Part shown: piece by piece, positions 12,246-21,684 of the stretch
Numbering within the stretch: the first letter of the stretch is position 1
How the letters are laid out: each line of letters opens with the position of its first letter
Source: an uncultured bacterium
GTDB taxonomy: Bacteria; UBP6; UBA1177
Assembly: GCA_905233945.1 (NCBI GenBank)
Contig: CAJOFY010000007.1
Coordinates: forward strand, 1-51,221
Length of the DNA stretch: 51,221 nucleotides
Direction of reading: 5' to 3'
Notes under the pieces: model-generated
Seen by the model: the letters and a program-made list of their open reading frames with translations, nothing else
Database searches by the model: none
What the model was told of the DNA's origin: nothing
Made by a program: the position numbers and the translations under genes

Positions 12246-14111
12246 ATGGCTAACATAGTTTCGGTTTCGGGCGTTACCTGCATAAAGGCGGAACGCGTCC
12301 TGTTCAAAGATATTTCTTTCGGGGTCGAAAGCGGCGAAAAAGTCGCACTCATCGGCGTGAACGGCTGCGGAAAATCAACTCTGCTCAAAATAATCGCCGG
12401 TCTTGAAGAGCCTGAAAGCGGAACTGTTGCGATAAACAAGTCGGCTGCGGTCGCTTTTTTAAGCCAGATTCCCGAAATAAATCCTGATGAAACGATCGCC
12501 GATCACATTTTCTCGGGCAACGACGAAAAACTAAACCTCATCAAGCGTTACGAGATCGCGTGCAGCGGATTTAGCACTGAAGATGCGGCTGAACTTGCCG
12601 AAAAAATCGACACTCTGAACGTGAGAAGCTACGAATCTGAGATCAAATCCATTCTCACCCGCCTCGGAATAAACGATCTCACCCTCAAAATGGGCGAACT
12701 TTCGGGCGGAATGGTGAAAAAAGTGGCTCTGGCGCAGTGCATCGTCAAGGATTCGGGGCTTTTGCTGCTTGACGAGCCCACAAACCACCTCGATATCGAT
12801 ACGATTGTCTGGCTTGAAGACTATCTCCGCGAGACAAAAAAAGCGGTCATCATGGTTACGCACGACAGATATTTCCTCGATTCCGTGTGCAGCTCGATTT
12901 ACGAAATCGAAGGCTCAGATCTGTTTCACTACAAAGGGTGCTACGACTACTATCTCGAAAAAAAATCTGAATATTTTCACTCACTTGTCGCAAATGAAGA
13001 AAGAGTAAGAACGATTCTAAGGCGCGAGCTTGCATGGCTTGCAAGAGGCCCCAGAGCTAGAGCCACGAAATCGAAAGACCGCATCGAAAACATCCAGAAA
13101 ATGATGCAGCGAGAAAAGCCTGAAGAAGAAAAAAATATCGAACTTTCAATAGTAGGCAAAAGGCTCGGCAAAAAAATCCTCGAAATGAAGGATATCTCCT
13201 TTGACTGGAACGGCGAAACGATAATCAAAGACTTTAATTTCGCCTTCAAAAAGGATACCCGCTTAGGAATCATCGGAAACAACGGCAGCGGAAAAACAAC
13301 TTTTCTCGATATCCTGACCGGCAGACTTCAGCCCAAAAGCGGCGAATACGACCTCGGCATCAACACCGAATTTTCATACTTCGATCAGGTTTCACGCGAA
13401 CTTCCGGCAGATATGCGCCTCATTGATTTCGTAAAATCAAAAGGCGAAAATATAATTCTTGCCGACGGCTCGAAACTTTCGGCGGCGCAGATGCTTGAAA
13501 GATTTCTGTTTGAACCATCGATCCACTACACAAGGATCGAAAAACTTTCAGGCGGCGAAAAACGGCGGCTTTATCTCGTCGCGATACTTATGAATAACCC
13601 GAATTTCATCGTTCTCGACGAGCCGACGAACGATCTCGATATCAAAACACTCTCTGTTCTTGAGGACTTCCTCTCCTCCTTCAACGGCCCGATCGTAGTT
13701 GTAAGCCACGACCGATATTTCCTCGACAGAACAGTTGATACCCTGCTTATTTTCAAGGGAAACGGCATCATCGAAAGCTTTGTCGGAAAGGCTTCAGAAT
13801 GGATCGAAATGAACCGCAGAAACAGGCAGACAGAGCAGAAAAAAGCGGCCAAACCAAAAGACGAACCTTTGAAACCTAGAACTTTGCAGACAGACGCCAC
13901 AAAACTCACCTACTCCCAGCGCATCAGACTTGCCGACCTCGAAAAACTCATCCCAAAAACCGAAGCAGAAATCGCAGAAATCGAAGAAAAAATGGCCAAT
14001 TACGAAGAAAACAAAGGAAACATGGCCGAACTTTCCGCAAAATACAGCGAACTCAAGTCAAAATACGACTCCATGTTTGAGGAATATATCGAGTTGTCGG
14101 AGAAGGAGTAA
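12246..14111 (+). CDS. ABC-F family ATPase (Uup/EttA-type)
   Basis: The 621-residue soluble protein has two ABC domains and no membrane segment. Domain 1 carries Walker [10 protein letters not shown], signature [13 protein letters not shown] and Walker [13 protein letters not shown]. Domain 2 carries [22 protein letters not shown] and [12 protein letters not shown]. An arm/linker of basic residues ([20 protein letters not shown]) lies between them. The C-terminus (about 555-621) is a charged coiled coil, as in Uup. ABC-F proteins act on ribosomes or, for Uup, branched DNA; the subtype is inferred from the coiled-coil tail. The last 54 bp are repeated at 20289-20342, beyond the kinase/VWA/Sel1 genes, so the present 3' end may have been rebuilt by an insertion. 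Confidence 0.9.
14051..14104 (+). repeat. Left copy of ABC-F 3'-end direct repeat
   Basis: This stretch, encoding [19 protein letters not shown] of the ABC-F protein, recurs in the same orientation at 20289-20342 with three mismatches over 54 bases (offsets 7, 22 and 52). The two copies bracket the kinase-VWA-Sel1 gene cassette. A 3'-end gene duplication flanking foreign-looking genes is typical of integration that regenerates the end of the target gene. Confidence 0.9.
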
Positions 14112-14132: not shown

Positions 14133-15467
14133 ATGCTGGAAACAGGTTCGATACTTCAATCTGAGGCAGGCCCAATCACTATTCTCAAATTTCTGAACAA
14201 AGGCTCGCAGGCAGAAGTCTATGAAGTCAAAATAAAAATAAAAGGAAAAGAAGGCCGGTTTGCTCTCAAACGGTTTGCCCTCAAATATTATTTTGAAGAA
14301 CACTGCAAGGATCCGAAATTCAAAGACAATCTGCTTTCTGTAATTGAAAAGAAAAAACCTACCAACCGCTTCATCTGGCCTCTTCACTTTGTAGAAAACG
14401 GGAATCGTTTCGGATACCTTATGAATTTGCTTCCATCGGAATACCAGGCTTTATCCGGCTGCTTTTCAGGCAAACTCAGGATAAACGACAATATAAAATT
14501 CAAATTCTGCATAAATATGTGTGACGCTTTCCATCATCTGCATTATGATGAGGATTGCAGTTACAAAGACATTTCCCCTAAAAATATTTATATAAATCCC
14601 AGCAATGGAAATGTTCTGATAATTGACAACGACAACATTACTCCGAACAGAGACACAGCCGGTATCAGAAAATTTGTTAAAGGCACACCTGGATATATGG
14701 CTCCGGAACTGTTTGAAAATCCGGAAACAATACCTTCTAAGCAAACCGATTTCTATTCTGCCGGCGTATTGATTTTCAAATTATTTATGGGAATCGATCC
14801 CTTTGAACCTCTTGACAGCTCGAATTCTGACAGCAGTTCCCCGGTCATGGACATTTCATCTTTCTATAATCCAAAAAACAACAGATTCATTTTTCAAGAA
14901 ATAATAGAAAACAAAGGTGTCAATGCGGAAAGAGATAAAGCAAAACTTTGGTTTTCATATCCGGAATCCGTAAGAAATTTGTTCAAAAGGCTTTTTACAG
15001 AAGGAATCAACGATCCGTGGAAACGACCGAGCTGCGAAGAATGGAGAGATGAGTTGATCAAATGTCTTGCAGCTGCTTATTCCTGCCCCGACCCCAATTG
15101 TTCCTTTTCATCATTTTTAAATGAAAATGAACTCATGAAAAACAACGGAAAAATTCACTGTCCTCTCTGCAATAAAGATTTCACTCTTCCTATCATGAAA
15201 TCAGGAAAAGACACGCTTGTTGTAATGAATGACAAGGAAGAGATCTATTCCGGCTATTTCGAGGATTTAAGACGAAACGAATCCAGAATGGAAATCGTTA
15301 TGACAGCCGAACTGACGAAAAAAGGACTAAGGCTTTTAAACAAGTCAAATTACAGCATAACTCACCACGGAAAAACAATAAAAAAAGAGGAACACACTGA
15401 TTTTATAAAAGATTTGGATTCATTAACTGTTGACGGCAAAGTATATAAGATTATTCTTCCGGTGTAG
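14133..15467 (+). CDS. Ser/Thr protein kinase with C-terminal zinc ribbon
   Basis: The 444-residue protein has a eukaryotic-type kinase domain at about 13-310. It shows a glycine loop LNKGSQAEVYEV (21-32), ATP-anchoring lysine in FALK (Lys46), a catalytic loop YKDISPKN with Asp146, a metal-binding IDNDN (Asp165/Asp167) in place of DFG, and GTPGYMAPEL in the activation segment. A four-cysteine zinc ribbon follows (C318, C323, C343, C346), then a beta-rich tail of ~95 residues. HRD is changed to YKD, and DFG to DND; both catalytic Asp positions are kept, so activity is plausible. Kinase-VWA pairs are known from the TerY-P triads and E. coli YegI/YegL, but the PP2C phosphatase of those triads is absent here. 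AAGGAT precedes the start by about eight bases. Confidence 0.83.
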   Translation: MLETGSILQSEAGPITILKFLNKGSQAEVYEVKIKIKGKEGRFALKRFALKYYFEEHCKDPKFKDNLLSVIEKKKPTNRFIWPLHFVENGNRFGYLMNLLPSEYQALSGCFSGKLRINDNIKFKFCINMCDAFHHLHYDEDCSYKDISPKNIYINPSNGNVLIIDNDNITPNRDTAGIRKFVKGTPGYMAPELFENPETIPSKQTDFYSAGVLIFKLFMGIDPFEPLDSSNSDSSSPVMDISSFYNPKNNRFIFQEIIENKGVNAERDKAKLWFSYPESVRNLFKRLFTEGINDPWKRPSCEEWRDELIKCLAAAYSCPDPNCSFSSFLNENELMKNNGKIHCPLCNKDFTLPIMKSGKDTLVVMNDKEEIYSGYFEDLRRNESRMEIVMTAELTKKGLRLLNKSNYSITHHGKTIKKEEHTDFIKDLDSLTVDGKVYKIILPV

Positions 15468-15495
15468 AAAGTTCTAAGGAATATCGGAGTTATTC

Positions 15496-16989
15496 ATGAG
15501 TATAAAGAACATCGTTTCCAACTTTGAAATTAAAAGGCATCAGTTTGAAATAATCTATGCGATAGACACTTCCGCATCAATGTGCGGTGAAAAGATAGAA
15601 TCTGTCAACAACGCCATGCACGAACTGGAAAGATTATTAAAAGAGGAAGCCGAGAAAAACAGCGATCAGGTTCAGATTTATATAAGAATCATCACTTTCG
15701 GCGGAGATCAGGCTGTATGGCACCTGGAAGAGCGGACCCGCATTGAAGATTTTTCCTATAAGAATATAAATGTCGTCAGAGGCGGACGAACACCGATGGG
15801 AAGCGCGTTCAATTTACTGAATCAGGCACTTAATGCTTCCTGTCTGCCGAATATTATGTTTAAACCGCTGTTGGTCCTCCTCTCCGACGGATGGCCTACC
15901 GATGAATGGGAAAATGAATTGGATCAGCTGATACAACATTCATGGGGCAGAAAAGCCACAAAAGTCGCTATTGCTATCGGAGAACAGGCAGACAAAGAGA
16001 TCCTGACAAAATTTACAACTAATCCTAAACAGGTTTTCGAAGCAAATGATTCTGCCGCAATCATAAAAACTATTGAATGGACCTCAACAATAATTTCAGC
16101 GACTGTTCTCGGTGAATATACGACTTATCCTGTATCATATATGTTGAATGGCAACCAGGATGTATTCTCATCAGAAAAATATTCAACAACCGATAGTAAT
16201 GCACAAATCATCGTTGACAAAGCAAACAGGGTTCTTGAACTCTACTTTGAAAACAAAAAACATGACTCATTGATTGAAAGCAAATCCTTTTTCGATGAAA
16301 TGAATATTTTCTTATTCGGAAAATCGGATTTTTCCCATATTCCTTCCACTCACGAAGATGAACTAAAAGATTCATTCATGGAAAAATTCAATAAGGATTC
16401 GGTGAAAATAGTAAAATATACAGAATTTACTCTTGCATATAGAAGGGTAAAGGAATACTCAAAAGAATGCGACATTCCAGAAATCGGATATGATCACAAC
16501 ATCAATTTTATAGACTGGTTCTTATTTGAGAACAAGATTATAAAAAAACGTAACAAAAAATTGCATGATGCAATAAATGTTTATGCAAACCAAAAAGACC
16601 TTTTTTTTCAAAACGAGGAAAAAAATAAATTTGAACGTAATTCAAGATCTTATAATTTTTTCTCCAGCGCAAACAGAGCCGAGACCCGTTTTATTAAAGA
16701 CAAAGATCTCTCCTCTTCCCTCATTCAAACAAGAAAAGCGGTAGAACAATACATTAAGGCAATGTATGAAAATGAATTCAAACAGGAAGCCCCGGACTCA
16801 CCTGCTCAGTGTCTTAAAGGATTAAAAAAAGTAATAACAAAAACATATTCTCACGAACTCTGGCCTTTGATAAAAAGAGGTAACGCAAATGCCCATGACT
16901 GCTATTCGACATACGATTTTGCAGTCATTCACGGTTTGGAAATGCTGAAAGAATGTGCCGGACAGATAAACAAATGGGGAAATAAATGA
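15496..16989 (+). CDS. TerY/YegL-like VWA protein with HEPN-like C-terminal domain
   Basis: The 497-residue protein begins with a von Willebrand A domain (about 15-215). Its metal-ion-dependent adhesion site is intact: DTSAS (Asp24, Ser26, Ser28), Thr99 in GGRTPMGS and Asp131 in LLSDGWPTDEW. The order and spacing match TerY/YegL proteins. A middle region (about 220-400) has no recognisable family. The last ~90 residues are helical and contain RKAVEQYIKAMYENEF and LIKRGNANAHDC. They resemble DUF4145/HEPN domains, and R461-x5-H467 fits the Rx4-6H motif of HEPN ribonucleases. No signal peptide or membrane helix is seen. The stop overlaps the next start (ATGA), so expression is coupled. The HEPN call is by eye and needs profile comparison. 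Confidence 0.75.
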   Translation: MSIKNIVSNFEIKRHQFEIIYAIDTSASMCGEKIESVNNAMHELERLLKEEAEKNSDQVQIYIRIITFGGDQAVWHLEERTRIEDFSYKNINVVRGGRTPMGSAFNLLNQALNASCLPNIMFKPLLVLLSDGWPTDEWENELDQLIQHSWGRKATKVAIAIGEQADKEILTKFTTNPKQVFEANDSAAIIKTIEWTSTIISATVLGEYTTYPVSYMLNGNQDVFSSEKYSTTDSNAQIIVDKANRVLELYFENKKHDSLIESKSFFDEMNIFLFGKSDFSHIPSTHEDELKDSFMEKFNKDSVKIVKYTEFTLAYRRVKEYSKECDIPEIGYDHNINFIDWFLFENKIIKKRNKKLHDAINVYANQKDLFFQNEEKNKFERNSRSYNFFSSANRAETRFIKDKDLSSSLIQTRKAVEQYIKAMYENEFKQEAPDSPAQCLKGLKKVITKTYSHELWPLIKRGNANAHDCYSTYDFAVIHGLEMLKECAGQINKWGNK

Positions 16990-18806
16990 ACCGGATCAAT
17001 AACGAAAAAGAAAAAATTCAACAAATAGAATGCCAGTATTGCGGTGTTCTTGTAAATGTAAACGAAAAAATCTGCCCTGAATGCAGGAAGCCTCTGCATC
17101 AGAGCAATAACGAGATCCGCGATTTCAAAACTGCAATAGAAATAAACGGTTACAAAAACAATGAAGAAAAGCCGTCAGAACATATACCTGAGAAGAGAAT
17201 AGTGTTTAATATGAAAATATCTCTGTCACGGCACAAGATGATATTTTTACTTGCTTCACTTATTATAATTCTGACAGCAATTTTCACAATCGTGATAATA
17301 AGTAATGATTCTTTAAAAAAGGCAGAAAAACTCTTTCTTAAAGGAGATTTTGATCCGGCTTTTAAAATATTTTCCGAACTTGCGGATAACGGAAACAGCA
17401 GGGCAATGTATTATTTAGGAGAATATTATACTCACGGCATCGGAAGTACTCACATAGATAACGAAAAGGCTTCCGAATGGAGGGAAAAAGGGGCTGAGAC
17501 CGGAGATATTCTGGCTAAACTGAATATAGCGGTATCACTTCCGGAAGATTCGGAATTAAAAAAAGATATCTTGAACAATCTCTTTCCGTCTGTGCTGGAA
17601 ATGGCTGAAAACGGCAATGCTAGGGCTCAAAGCGAACTGGCTGGTTTGTACGAACATGGCTGGGGAATTCAACAAGATTTGGAAAAAGCTCGTATTTGGT
17701 ATGAAAAAGCGATTGAAAAAGGAGATATCATTGCCACTCACAACTTGGGAAGACTCTACTTTAAAGGAAGCAACGAGATAAAAGAAAACAGGGACAAAGC
17801 ATACAATTTAATATTAACATCGTCGGAAAAAGGTTTTCCTGGAGCATGGTTCAACCTCGGTTCATTTTATAAAGACGGATTTAATGTAAAACCGGATCAA
17901 CAAGAAGCCTTTAAATGGTTTTTAAAGGCGGCAGAACAAGGTCATGCCATAGCACAGAACTATGTCGCCTTTTATTCTAAAGACGGAGTCGGAACCAAAC
18001 AGAATAAAATCAAAGCTTTTGAATGGTATAAAAAATCGGCCGAACAAGGGCTACACGCCGCTCAGTATGGTCTTGCCAATGCCTATTTCTACGGTGAAGG
18101 CATTGCCAAAGACAAAAGTGAAGCTTTCAAGTGGTATATGAAATCTGCGCGTCAGGATTTCCACCTCGCACAATACCGCGTCGGGGAATGTTATTATAAC
18201 GGCGACGGTGTGGAAGAAGACAAAACTCTTGCTTTTAACTGGTATAAACAGGCAGCGGAACACAACAATTTAAAGGCGATGATTCGAATCGGCGAATGTT
18301 ATCTCCGCGGAGACTGCACTCAGATGAACGAAAACGAAGCATTCAAATGGTTTATGAAAGCAGCAGAACCAGAGAACCAAAACGGAGATCCTGAAGCTCA
18401 ATATTTAGTCGGAATATCTTATGACAAAGGAATCGGAGTGGCTGCGGATAAACAAAAGGCTTTCGAATGGCTGAAAAAATCGTCAGACCAGGGATATTTG
18501 AAAGCCCAAATCCTGACAGCACTCTGTTACGAAAACGGAATCGGGATCACTGCCGATAAAACGGAAGCCTTCAAATTATGGCTAAATACTGCTATACGAA
18601 AACATAATCCTTTCGCTCAATATAAACTTGCTTGTCGCTTTCATGAGCAAGGAAAACACGAAGAGGCAAAGAAGTGGCTTAGAAACGCGGCAGCTCAGGG
18701 AAACAAAGAGGCTAAGGAAAGCCTTTTCAAATGGTATAAAGAAACAACATGGCGCGATTCCGCTGATGACGAACTTTATCAAATGCACCTTAAACTTTCG
18801 GAATAA
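16986..18806 (+). CDS. Zinc-ribbon, membrane-anchored Sel1-repeat protein
   Basis: The 606-residue protein opens with a small zinc ribbon (C16, C19, C30, C33). A hydrophilic stretch and one transmembrane helix (about 85-106, IFLLASLIIILTAIFTIVII) follow, with basic residues on its N-terminal side, which predicts the ribbon inside and the rest outside the cytoplasm. About a dozen Sel1 repeats fill residues ~115-595, for example AFKWFLKAAEQGHAIAQNYV and AFEWYKKSAEQGLHAAQYGL. Sel1 repeats are TPR-like binding scaffolds that often act as sensors or adaptors. Translation is coupled to the VWA gene by a four-base overlap. It may be the membrane sensor or scaffold for the kinase/VWA pair; that is inference. 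Confidence 0.8.
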   Translation: MNRINNEKEKIQQIECQYCGVLVNVNEKICPECRKPLHQSNNEIRDFKTAIEINGYKNNEEKPSEHIPEKRIVFNMKISLSRHKMIFLLASLIIILTAIFTIVIISNDSLKKAEKLFLKGDFDPAFKIFSELADNGNSRAMYYLGEYYTHGIGSTHIDNEKASEWREKGAETGDILAKLNIAVSLPEDSELKKDILNNLFPSVLEMAENGNARAQSELAGLYEHGWGIQQDLEKARIWYEKAIEKGDIIATHNLGRLYFKGSNEIKENRDKAYNLILTSSEKGFPGAWFNLGSFYKDGFNVKPDQQEAFKWFLKAAEQGHAIAQNYVAFYSKDGVGTKQNKIKAFEWYKKSAEQGLHAAQYGLANAYFYGEGIAKDKSEAFKWYMKSARQDFHLAQYRVGECYYNGDGVEEDKTLAFNWYKQAAEHNNLKAMIRIGECYLRGDCTQMNENEAFKWFMKAAEPENQNGDPEAQYLVGISYDKGIGVAADKQKAFEWLKKSSDQGYLKAQILTALCYENGIGITADKTEAFKLWLNTAIRKHNPFAQYKLACRFHEQGKHEEAKKWLRNAAAQGNKEAKESLFKWYKETTWRDSADDELYQMHLKLSE

Positions 18807-18811
18807 TTATT

Positions 18812-20281
18812 TTGGTCAAGAACAGATTAGCTGATGAAAAAGTTCTAAATTCTGACAATCCCGAAGCACTGCACTGGTCGGCTCTATCCAAATATTGCGG
18901 CGTAGGGACAGCAGAAAATGAGGAAGAAGCGTTTAAATTGTTTGAGATTTCCGCCAAAAATGGATATACCCCAAGCCAAAGAGCCCTCGCCTTTTGTTAC
19001 AAAAACGGTATCGGTGTAAAAAAAGACCTGTTCTCTTCTTTGAGATGGCAGACAATCGCAAAAATACGCAGCATTAACAAAATAAAACTGCTTGTAACTT
19101 CTGTTTTCTTTTTATTTTTCATATTTTGTTTTTATCTAACCTTTTTCACGACATTTGTTGCAGAAAAACTGCTGCTGAAAGGTTATTTCAATGCATCATT
19201 CTATTTATTCAAAATATTGGAAAAAGAGGATAATCCTAAAAGTTATTATTTTTTGGGGTTGCATCATTTGTATGCTTTAGGAAATTTGAATCAAGATGCT
19301 GAAAAAGCTGAAATATTTATGAGAAAAGGTATGAATGCAAAGGATAATCTCGCCACTTTCAGCACTGCATTTTTTCTCACCGAAAAACCAGAAGAAAAAG
19401 AAACTATTATCAGAAATACTTTTAACACGATCCTAAAAATGGCTGAAAACGGGGATCCTTTCGCCCAAAACGAAACAGGAAAAATCTATTATGAAACTGA
19501 AAATTATGACAAAGCTTTTTACTGGTGGTCGGAATCGGCGAAACAGGGATATGTTGCAGCACATAACAATATTGCTTTATGTTATAGCGAAGGCAAAGGA
19601 GTGGCTCAAAACAAAGAAAAGGCTGTCGAAATATATAAAAAACTTGCCGAAAAAAATAATTTCATAACATCACAAAAAAATCTGGCCAACTATTATTACA
19701 ACAAAAATAATAAGAAATTATCACCGGAATCTTGTGAATGGTATGAACAGGCCGCGTTACAAGGGGATACAGATGCTCAAAACAAACTGGGTCTTTGCTA
19801 TAACAAAGGTTATGAAAACTGGAAAGCAAGAAATGAATTTGAAAGCTGCAAATGGTTTGAAAAAGCAGCAGTTAAAGGTCACACCGTAGCTCAGTTTTAT
19901 ATCGGGCAATGCTATTATAAGGGGGTCGGAGTCAATCAAAAAAATACGGAAAAAGGATGTGAATGGTTTGAAAAGGCTGCACTTCAAGGACTCGCAGAAG
20001 CCCAATATAATTTGGCAATTTGCTATAGCAAAGGAGATGGGAAAGAAAAGAATAAAGTCGAAAGCTGTAAATGGTATGAAAAAGCAGCAAACAATGGTGT
20101 TGCGGATGCTCAATACCGTTTGTTCCGTTGTTACTTTGACAAGGACGGTTTAGGGAAAAACGATGAAAAAGCCAAATACTGGCTCAGAAAAGCGGCCCGG
20201 CAAAATCACAGGGAAGCTATAAATATGCTTCGTGGAGCATTCAACGAAAAAGTTGATCCTGAAGAGATCGAATCAAAATAG
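18812..20281 (+). CDS. Second membrane Sel1-repeat protein
   Basis: The 489-residue protein starts at TTG 18812, five bases after the previous stop. No good Shine-Dalgarno is seen; an in-frame stop at 18791 limits alternatives, so the start depends on coupling. At least one Sel1 repeat (about 20-75) precedes a transmembrane helix (about 93-115, LLVTSVFFLFFIFCFYLTFF) with basic residues before it. About eight more repeats follow (WYEQAALQGDTDAQNKLGLC, WFEKAALQGLAEAQYNLAIC). Repeats therefore lie on both sides of the membrane. There is no zinc ribbon, unlike its neighbour, of which it is probably a diverged paralogue. The stop is immediately followed by the ABC-F gene remnant. Confidence 0.75.
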   Translation: MVKNRLADEKVLNSDNPEALHWSALSKYCGVGTAENEEEAFKLFEISAKNGYTPSQRALAFCYKNGIGVKKDLFSSLRWQTIAKIRSINKIKLLVTSVFFLFFIFCFYLTFFTTFVAEKLLLKGYFNASFYLFKILEKEDNPKSYYFLGLHHLYALGNLNQDAEKAEIFMRKGMNAKDNLATFSTAFFLTEKPEEKETIIRNTFNTILKMAENGDPFAQNETGKIYYETENYDKAFYWWSESAKQGYVAAHNNIALCYSEGKGVAQNKEKAVEIYKKLAEKNNFITSQKNLANYYYNKNNKKLSPESCEWYEQAALQGDTDAQNKLGLCYNKGYENWKARNEFESCKWFEKAAVKGHTVAQFYIGQCYYKGVGVNQKNTEKGCEWFEKAALQGLAEAQYNLAICYSKGDGKEKNKVESCKWYEKAANNGVADAQYRLFRCYFDKDGLGKNDEKAKYWLRKAARQNHREAINMLRGAFNEKVDPEEIESK

Positions 20282-20349
20282 CTGAAGCACTCAAATCAAA
20301 ATACGACTCAATGTTTGAGGAATATATCGAGTTGTCGGAAAAAGCCTGA
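20281..20349 (+). pseudogene. Remnant of ABC-F 3' end
   Basis: Read from 20281, 22 codons end in [16 protein letters not shown] and a TGA stop, matching the ABC-F C-terminus except for the final residues (A instead of E). There is no start codon or upstream homology. This is probably the displaced original end of the ABC-F gene, left when the cassette was inserted. Confidence 0.75.
20289..20342 (+). repeat. Right copy of ABC-F 3'-end direct repeat
   Basis: Matches 14051-14104 at 51 of 54 positions in the same orientation. Similarity begins abruptly eight bases after the Sel1 stop codon and ends just before the remnant's own stop codon. Confidence 0.9.
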
Positions 20350-20368
20350 CCGTTATGGTCATTCTTTT
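20347..20368. terminator. Hairpin terminator between convergent genes
   Basis: TGACC (20347-20351) pairs with GGTCA (20357-20361) around GTTAT. A T-rich run follows on the plus strand (TTCTTTT), and the minus strand continues GGCTTTTT, so it could stop transcription from both the cassette and ftsZ. The stem includes the stop of the ABC-F remnant, as expected if it was the original ABC-F terminator. Five pairs make it a modest hairpin. Confidence 0.5.
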
Positions 20369-20373
20369 CAGAA

Positions 20374-21684
20374 TTATTTGAAACAGATTTCAGAAATGGT
20401 TGACTGACGGACTTTCTCCTTATTGGCAGCTTCCTGGCGGATGACAGCAGGAATATTCAGATCGTTCTGATCAACGGTTTTTTCAGGAACAAGAACCACA
20501 TCCTCAAGAGAAATCGGCTTTGCCTCATTTATATTCACGCTCTGAGGCTTGGCGGAAGCACTTGCCGAAGCAGCCGGAGCAGTCCTGCTTTCTTCTTCTT
20601 TGACAAGAGGTTTCTGCACTTCGATGATGACATCCTCGTTCACGTTTCCGCTTGCTTCGTCAAACATGCTTGTCTGATCATCCTTATTCACTTTCTTGAA
20701 CTCTTTCAAAGACTCCGGGAGTTCGGCAGCGTGAGCTTCGGCAATGATGAGAACGGATACATCAGTTTTGTTTTTATCGACAAAAAGACCGAATTTGAAC
20801 TGCGCACTCTTGTCGCGCAGTCCTTCCAGATATACTGCAGCCTCGTTGAATTCCTTGAGTTTGGTGTTTCCGCTGACGTAAACAAGCATCCTTTTCGCCC
20901 CTTTTACCGTGAAGTTTTTCAGAAGCGGATTGTTGAGTGCGTCTTTTACAGCGTTGAGCGGAGCATGTTCGCCGGTCGCGGTCCCGAAACCGATAACGGC
21001 AATACCCATATCCTTCATCGTGTTCTTGACATCGGAGAAATCTATATTGACCGTTCCGGTCTTGATTATAAGTTCCGAAATGCTCCTGACCGCATAAATA
21101 AGGATTTCATTCGGCTTTTTGAACATATCGACGGTATCGTCATCGTCACCGGCCATTTCAAGCAGAGTGTCGTTCGGAACAACGAGGAGGGCATCGACAT
21201 TCTTTTTAAGTTCTTCGATCCCGGCCTCGGCACTTTCCATTTTCTGGCCGCCTTCAAAAGAGAACGGCTTTGTTACGATTCCGACAGTCAGAATATCGTT
21301 CTTTTTGGCAGCGCCGGCAATGACAGGAGCTGCTCCCGTTCCCGTTCCGCCGCCCATACCGGCAGTAATAAAAACCATGTGGTGGCCTTCAAAAGAGGAA
21401 ACGATATTGACCTGGCTCTCTATCGCGGCATCCCTTCCGCATTCAGGATTTCCTCCGGCCCCCTGACCTTTCGTAAGTTTCGGTCCCAGCTGTATCTTCT
21501 CGACATCGTTGATCTGGTCCAGCACCTGTGCATCGGTATTGACCGCAACAACCTTCACATGACTATCTCTAAAAATTGAATTTTCATCCTTGCCCATCTC
21601 CTCGCCCATCATCTTCACCGCATTGCATCCGCAGCCTCCGACACCGAGAACTGCAATTTTAACGACCTTGTTCTCACCACTCAT
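20374..21684 (-). CDS. ftsZ: Cell division protein FtsZ
   Basis: The 436-residue tubulin-like GTPase polymerises into the division ring. The GTP-binding signature AGMGGGTGTGAAP, the nucleotide-contact region VNTDAQVL and the T7 synergy loop NIDFSDVKNTM are present. Unusual points are the first glycine loop, which reads GVGGCGCNAV (Cys18 and Cys20 where glycines are usual), and an insertion of about eight residues before VKVVAVNTDAQ. A long variable linker (about 335-405) leads to LNIPAVIRQ, the conserved tail peptide that binds FtsA. About 18 more residues follow, which is longer than usual. It is the last gene of the dcw cluster, nine bases after ftsA with SD AGGAGAG. Confidence 0.96.
   Translation of the reverse strand: MSGENKVVKIAVLGVGGCGCNAVKMMGEEMGKDENSIFRDSHVKVVAVNTDAQVLDQINDVEKIQLGPKLTKGQGAGGNPECGRDAAIESQVNIVSSFEGHHMVFITAGMGGGTGTGAAPVIAGAAKKNDILTVGIVTKPFSFEGGQKMESAEAGIEELKKNVDALLVVPNDTLLEMAGDDDDTVDMFKKPNEILIYAVRSISELIIKTGTVNIDFSDVKNTMKDMGIAVIGFGTATGEHAPLNAVKDALNNPLLKNFTVKGAKRMLVYVSGNTKLKEFNEAAVYLEGLRDKSAQFKFGLFVDKNKTDVSVLIIAEAHAAELPESLKEFKKVNKDDQTSMFDEASGNVNEDVIIEVQKPLVKEEESRTAPAASASASAKPQSVNINEAKPISLEDVVLVPEKTVDQNDLNIPAVIRQEAANKEKVRQSTISEICFK

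Follow-up and report, generated by a model that had tools for sequence, protein, structure and literature searches.

Four intact open reading frames on the + strand occupy positions 14133-20281 of the window (the whole 51,221-nt stretch of DNA that was analysed) and encode, in order, a Ser/Thr protein kinase, a VWA protein and two membrane Sel1 proteins, designated A and B (Table 1). Because the gaps between them are only 28, -4 and 5 bp the genes are considered coupled: the ORF listing, Pfam matches and spacing reproduce exactly the four-gene unit that a first-pass annotation of this DNA had described. The cassette has as neighbours spoIID, an ABC-F gene and an ftsZ/ftsA/mur cluster. No defence gene is found among the immediate neighbours, and these flanks do not support a defence island.

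Table 1. Positions of the cassette genes, their domains and the flanking features in the window.
Feature	Position	Strand	Remarks
ABC-F gene	12246-14111	+	cassette starts just behind its stop
Left copy of 54-nt direct repeat (ABC-F 3' end)	14051..14104	+	now upstream of cassette
TerY-P-type Ser/Thr protein kinase	14133..15467	+	444 aa; Pfam Pkinase; zinc ribbon; catalytic motifs
VWA protein, whole ORF	15496-16989	+	497 aa
TerY-like VWA domain (residues 1-230)	15496..16185	+	Pfam VWA; intact MIDAS
Helical C-terminal tail of VWA protein (residues 231-497)	16186..16986	+	predicted structure
Membrane Sel1 protein A	16986..18806	+	606 aa; Pfam Sel1; hydrophobic segment
Membrane Sel1 protein B	18812..20281	+	489 aa, TTG start; Pfam Sel1; hydrophobic segment
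Right copy of 54-nt direct repeat (displaced ABC-F 3' end)	20289..20342	+	own in-frame stop 20347-20349
Terminator-like hairpin (TGACCGTTATGGTCA + T-rich)	20347..20361	+	consensus match only; at displaced ABC-F stop

The kinase matches Pfam Pkinase (E = 6e-17) and has the catalytic motifs ALK (44-46), YKD (144-146), DND (165-167) and APE (190-192), its catalytic residues being invariant when set against independent relatives. It shares a C-terminal domain with TerY-P kinases and has a C-terminal zinc ribbon whose four cysteines (C318, C323, C343, C346) are invariant in an alignment with those kinases; the earlier description of a Ser/Thr kinase with zinc ribbon thus holds on profile, motifs and cysteines alike. 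The TerY-P family HMM recognises the protein with E = 1e-148 (the window sequence being among the HMM seeds). The sequence is divergent: it occupies a long branch, and its placement in a kinase tree, built by a quick method, is not confident. Matches to the PADLOC models mad6 and PD-T4-6 were dismissed as noise, being confined to the kinase domain and triggered by ordinary TerY-P kinases as well.

The VWA protein is likewise a divergent member of the TerY-P family. It is matched by Pfam VWA (E = 1e-8) and by the family HMM (E = 2e-88, with the window sequence again among the seeds), and its MIDAS is complete (D24-x-S26-x-S28, T99, D131) and invariant across 26 sequences. A model of the VWA region has pLDDT > 90 and finds VWA structures as its best PDB matches. 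MIDAS, fold and the TerY-P relatives described below all agree with the TerY-like identity first proposed.

Behind this domain the protein continues as a helical tail of ~270 aa, for which a HEPN-like fold had been suggested. The final ~100 aa are predicted to form four helices (pLDDT 69.6, pTM 0.60), the last of which opens with R461-GNANA-H467 (R-x5-H). The residue before N in this motif is G, not the canonical R of RNxxxH – G is also found in many DUF4145 members – and because G replaces the usual R, catalysis by the tail is uncertain. Against a home-made DUF4145 profile (from 13 proteins) the VWA protein ranks first among 6,843 ORFs; the tail itself scores 12 bits (E = 0.1), above all 500 shuffles (best shuffle 5.1 bits). 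The hhalign probability for a HEPN match is 10%, and among 300 control segments one did better. No Pfam HEPN or DUF4145 match is present in the tail, and Foldseek searches with its model (of modest quality) gave nothing below E 0.7 in the PDB and nothing significant among viral models. What stands of the suggestion is the C-terminal helical region, the DUF4145-like motif and the profile rank. On this evidence a HEPN domain of DUF4145-like type is a plausible identity for the tail. Homologues were found in none of the plasmids, viral contigs, PDB sequences or 385 other genomes searched, the window itself giving the only match; a hit in one genome (G022, E = 0.006) was rejected as chance, since its flanks contain no VWA or kinase gene.

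The last two genes fit the earlier description of a membrane Sel1 pair, each product combining Sel1 repeats with a single strong hydrophobic segment. Sel1-A (Pfam Sel1 E = 2e-84, 11 repeats) has an N-terminal CxxC...CxxC zinc ribbon and one TM segment at about residues 87-107 (Kyte-Doolittle mean 3.05 at residue 87). Sel1-B (E = 3.5e-57) has Sel1 repeats at its N-terminus, one TM segment at about residues 93-115 (mean 2.46 at residue 93) and a C-terminal Sel1 array. The two are paralogues (33% identity over 363 aa, E = 1e-48); positive-inside charge is clear in Sel1-B only (5 vs 2), Sel1-A being balanced (5 vs 5). The window's genus has many Sel1 proteins, some of them with a TM segment or zinc ribbon, that have no kinase nearby, and its own genome is rich in Sel1 proteins as well. 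A further zinc-ribbon/Sel1 protein of this genome (L204:9050-10129) has a hydrophobic C-terminal segment, and several proteins beside it share its N-terminal motif QIAADGTIFEVLDDGTIKRIGK.

The TerY-P triad comprises a TerY VWA protein, a PP2C phosphatase and a Ser/Thr kinase that bears a zinc ribbon (Anantharaman et al. 2012, cited after PMC11090510 and PMC4978471). It is described as a switch working by phosphorylation, with ties to restriction and HEPN systems (PMC11090510). As a single-sequence query of genome contigs the VWA protein found nothing; an alignment was needed, and with it 374 TerY-like relatives were recovered from 84,980 species genomes. The best 80 loci were scored with HMMs built from the kinase, VWA and PP2C families. 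A TerY-P PP2C is present at all of these best 80 of 374 loci and a kinase at nearly all, the few with no kinase match lying mostly on contigs that end nearby. Given this company, the window kinase and VWA protein are TerY-P parts: family HMMs, invariant residues and relatives' loci all endorse TerY-P as the nearest known context, as the first-pass annotation had it. It was also right about the missing phosphatase – HMM searches found no PP2C in the 51-kb window – and the only two PP2Cs elsewhere in the genome are of the stand-alone housekeeping type. Complete TerY-P sets occur within the genus, in G013 (TerD, kinase, two VWA, PP2C, with the TerD gene preceding the kinase), G012 (two clusters) and G009; among the four cassette genes Pfam detected no TerD, TerB or TerC partner. 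A phage collection yielded one match, to VWA alone. The best reading is that the cassette would be an offshoot of TerY-P from which the phosphatase has gone and to which two membrane-anchored Sel1 proteins and a helical tail have been added.

Two arrangements in related genomes may be recorded here. One cluster of G012 (L024:685-18869, GC 0.362) contains two kinases, a PP2C, three VWA proteins, Hsp70-like and coiled-coil proteins, an Lcl_C/Sel1 protein with a TM segment, and trypsin-like proteases that are likewise TM proteins. At two further loci in the same phylum and genus (L023:535-6086 and L025:11282-16917) a large helicase and a HEPN-motif protein adjoin VWA, PP2C and kinase genes, an arrangement that resembles CoCoNuT CnuH/CnuE with TerY-P.

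TerY-P genes accompanied by Sel1 are found in other phyla, which had been overlooked. At 4 of the best 80 loci, and on a Methylomonas plasmid (L028), a Sel1 gene directly follows the PP2C gene and starts within 10 bp of its end. Three of these kinase-VWA-PP2C-Sel1 loci belong to Clostridia (L056, L075 and L059; Cellulosilyticum, Sporanaerobium and an uncultured Clostridia bacterium) and one to Methylococcaceae (L110). The quick kinase tree places these five loci on two distinct branches, so Sel1 coupling arose or moved more than once. These sets resemble the cassette in placing a Sel1 gene after a TerY-P kinase and VWA gene in the same operon; they differ in that PP2C is present, the VWA protein is untailed and there is a single Sel1 protein, with no TM segment and with an N-terminal helical domain. 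None of the best 80 TerY loci has this exact order of four genes, a tailed VWA protein or a pair of TM Sel1 proteins, and these data do not support conservation of the order elsewhere; as the order was seen once, co-selection of exactly these parts is no more than a possibility. No paper that treats TerY-P and Sel1 jointly turned up in a literature search. The three clostridial sets lie directly upstream of a hisZ-hisG-hisD operon, outside any defence context.

The GC content of the cassette is 0.379 vs 0.463; just five 1-kb bins in the whole window fall below 0.41, and every one of them lies inside the cassette; TerY-P cassettes of the same genus are also GC-poor (0.394 and 0.354 vs 0.470 and 0.441 in their flanks). 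On either side stands a copy of the ABC-F 3' end; the right one comes immediately after the fourth gene, a short distance ahead of position 20374, where the convergent ftsZ gene ends. The copies are identical at 51 of 54 positions, the three differences all being third-position and synonymous, and the next-best match within the window reaches 31/54. A direct repeat at a gene 3' end flanking a foreign-like insert is a mark of integrase-borne genomic islands. The ABC-F end of a sister species matches the right copy at 52/54 positions and the left at 49/54; from this closeness, on few sites, the right copy would appear to be the old resident end, and the left copy to have come with the cassette. 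No integrase, transposase or recombinase lies between the repeats, where only the four ORFs have recognisable domains. In no sister genome examined (one per species) are ABC-F and ftsZ neighbours, so the empty-site comparison is not decisive. The notion that the ABC-F 3' end is a shared insertion hotspot was discarded, since none of nine sisters has the sequence a second time behind its ABC-F gene. The cassette is best read as a horizontally acquired insertion, a possibility that the first-pass annotation had missed. Between 12000 and 20700 the only + strand terminator-like site listed is the consensus match in Table 1; with none between ABC-F and that site, read-through is likely and the cassette is probably transcribed from the ABC-F promoter.

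Three smaller features of this region deserve mention. A 10-bp sequence, AATCAAAATA, is shared by the end of Sel1-B (about 20270-20280) and the interior of the repeat, a possible microhomology. The ABC-F protein is 97-98% identical to those of two sister species (L162, L163) whose FtsZ is only about 68-70% identical. Furthermore, ABC-F neighbours vary among most sister genomes compared, pointing to possible exchange of ABC-F within the genus.

Comparison with known systems places the cassette close to TerY-P. Shared with the triad are a kinase with C-terminal zinc ribbon, a TerY-like VWA protein with MIDAS and adjacent, co-oriented genes; the differences are the absence of PP2C, the ~270-aa VWA tail and two added TM Sel1 genes. 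The kinase and VWA logic is also that of stand-alone antiphage TerY-P (Gao et al. 2020, as described in PMC7699616 and PMC11090510), in which the kinase is reportedly fused to an OB fold, PP2C is present and, in those accounts, Sel1 is not; there defence was measured, whereas the cassette is known from sequence. Type II and III-A CoCoNuT systems share TerY-P components and the theme of a HEPN effector, but no McrB GTPase, McrC, CnuH or CnuE is found among the four genes and the flanking ABC-F, spoIID, gpmI, ftsZ, ftsA and ftsQ. DUF4145 HEPN domains are known fused to Sel1, zinc ribbon or TM segments and in operons with TerD (PMC3710099); the cassette holds the same ingredients (Sel1, zinc ribbon, TM, DUF4145-like motif) on separate proteins, and its tail has no Pfam match.

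TerY-P switches are widespread and some are antiphage; their activators and targets are unclear. The membrane Sel1 proteins and the effector-like VWA tail suggest how a signal could pass physically from the membrane to the kinase and on to the VWA protein within one four-gene unit, the Sel1 neighbours in two other lineages point to Sel1 as a recurring partner of TerY-P, and the cassette suggests that modules derived from TerY travel in small units inserting behind a housekeeping gene. We give an even chance to the hypothesis that the cassette arrived by horizontal transfer and is a phosphorylation module derived from TerY-P, without its former PP2C and now tied to the membrane. If so, the Sel1 pair would serve as membrane receptor or scaffold, with the long Sel1 arrays on one side and, opposite them, the zinc ribbon of A or the short Sel1 stretch of B; kinase and VWA protein would come together under stress or when the envelope is perturbed; and the VWA protein, phosphorylated or switched in a metal-dependent manner, would release its tail as a helical adaptor or HEPN-type effector. 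Having no phosphatase of its own, such a switch would work in one direction or else be reset by housekeeping PP2Cs. The relay of a membrane signal via phosphorylation is probable, and a defence or RNase output is possible.

One rival reading, along the lines of the first-pass annotation, is a dedicated anti-phage abortive-infection system, in which Sel1 membrane sensors would activate the kinase and thereby an RNA-cutting HEPN tail. Protection against T7-like phages is on record for TerY-P modules (PMC7699616), which also occur alongside CoCoNuT systems that bear HEPN (PMC11090510); genomes of the phylum have VWA-PP2C-kinase genes beside HEPN-motif and large helicase proteins; the cassette has the look of a horizontal acquisition; and the tail both opens its last helix with R-x5-H and takes the top DUF4145 rank. 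The same tail, however, has G for the canonical R and neither Pfam nor PDB fold match, and its hhalign probability is exceeded by a control; no defence gene adjoins the cassette, and the closest TerY-P relatives with Sel1, those of Clostridia, adjoin a his operon and not a defence island. We regard this reading as unlikely. The fuller version – a mobile, phosphatase-free TerY-P derivative whose membrane Sel1 sensors, kinase and VWA-HEPN fusion would make a complete four-gene membrane-to-RNA kill relay – is quite improbable; such a relay would be analogous to eukaryotic Ire1/RNase L in logic, not by homology. Envelope or stress signalling with no nuclease, the Sel1 pair sensing envelope state, the tail acting as helical adaptor and the output being phosphorylated cellular targets, is a doubtful though reasonable alternative: in iSTAND systems, Sel1 domains that associate with peptidoglycan are linked to TM segments (PMC7159879), in G012 a TM protein with TPR/Sel1 and Lcl_C adjoins VWA, PP2C, kinase, Hsp70-like and trypsin-like TM genes, and the clostridial kinase-VWA-PP2C-Sel1 context is conserved and non-defence. 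Yet the cassette is a GC-poor insertion in one species, unlike stable housekeeping modules, and its insertion site implies no envelope role.

The unit itself may also be questioned. The four genes might have come together by chance or be in decay, as a TerY-P remnant that lost PP2C and landed next to two ordinary Sel1 genes; both the genus and the genome abound in Sel1 proteins, the kinase branch is long, the gene order was seen once, and in H. pylori deletion has left TerY-P clusters incomplete (PMC4978471). This is improbable in view of four intact ORFs with complete kinase and MIDAS motifs, a 4-bp overlap and a 5-bp gap, and the link of Sel1 to TerY-P in two other lineages; moreover, all four genes are GC-low and lie between the same repeats, which argues that they arrived or stayed together. 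An assembly artefact, the cassette coming from another genome and being joined at the shared ABC-F 3' end, might be suspected in a draft of 56 contigs with a GC shift exactly at the repeat, but the assembly would have to be wrong at two junctions, there are three differences between the repeat copies, and same-genus genomes have GC-poor TerY-P cassettes too: we consider it very improbable.

Two other TerY loci have unusual architectures. In Arthrospira (L132:15602-16960) a VWA domain is nested inside another TerY-like VWA domain. On the Methylomonas plasmid (L028:9465-14001) a ~100-aa N-terminal domain (MLD.HPR.QLCF...) recurs in at least five adjacent genes behind the TerY-P triad, where its fusion partners are Sel1, ClpA-N-like or other domains, and looks like an effector-associated adaptor.
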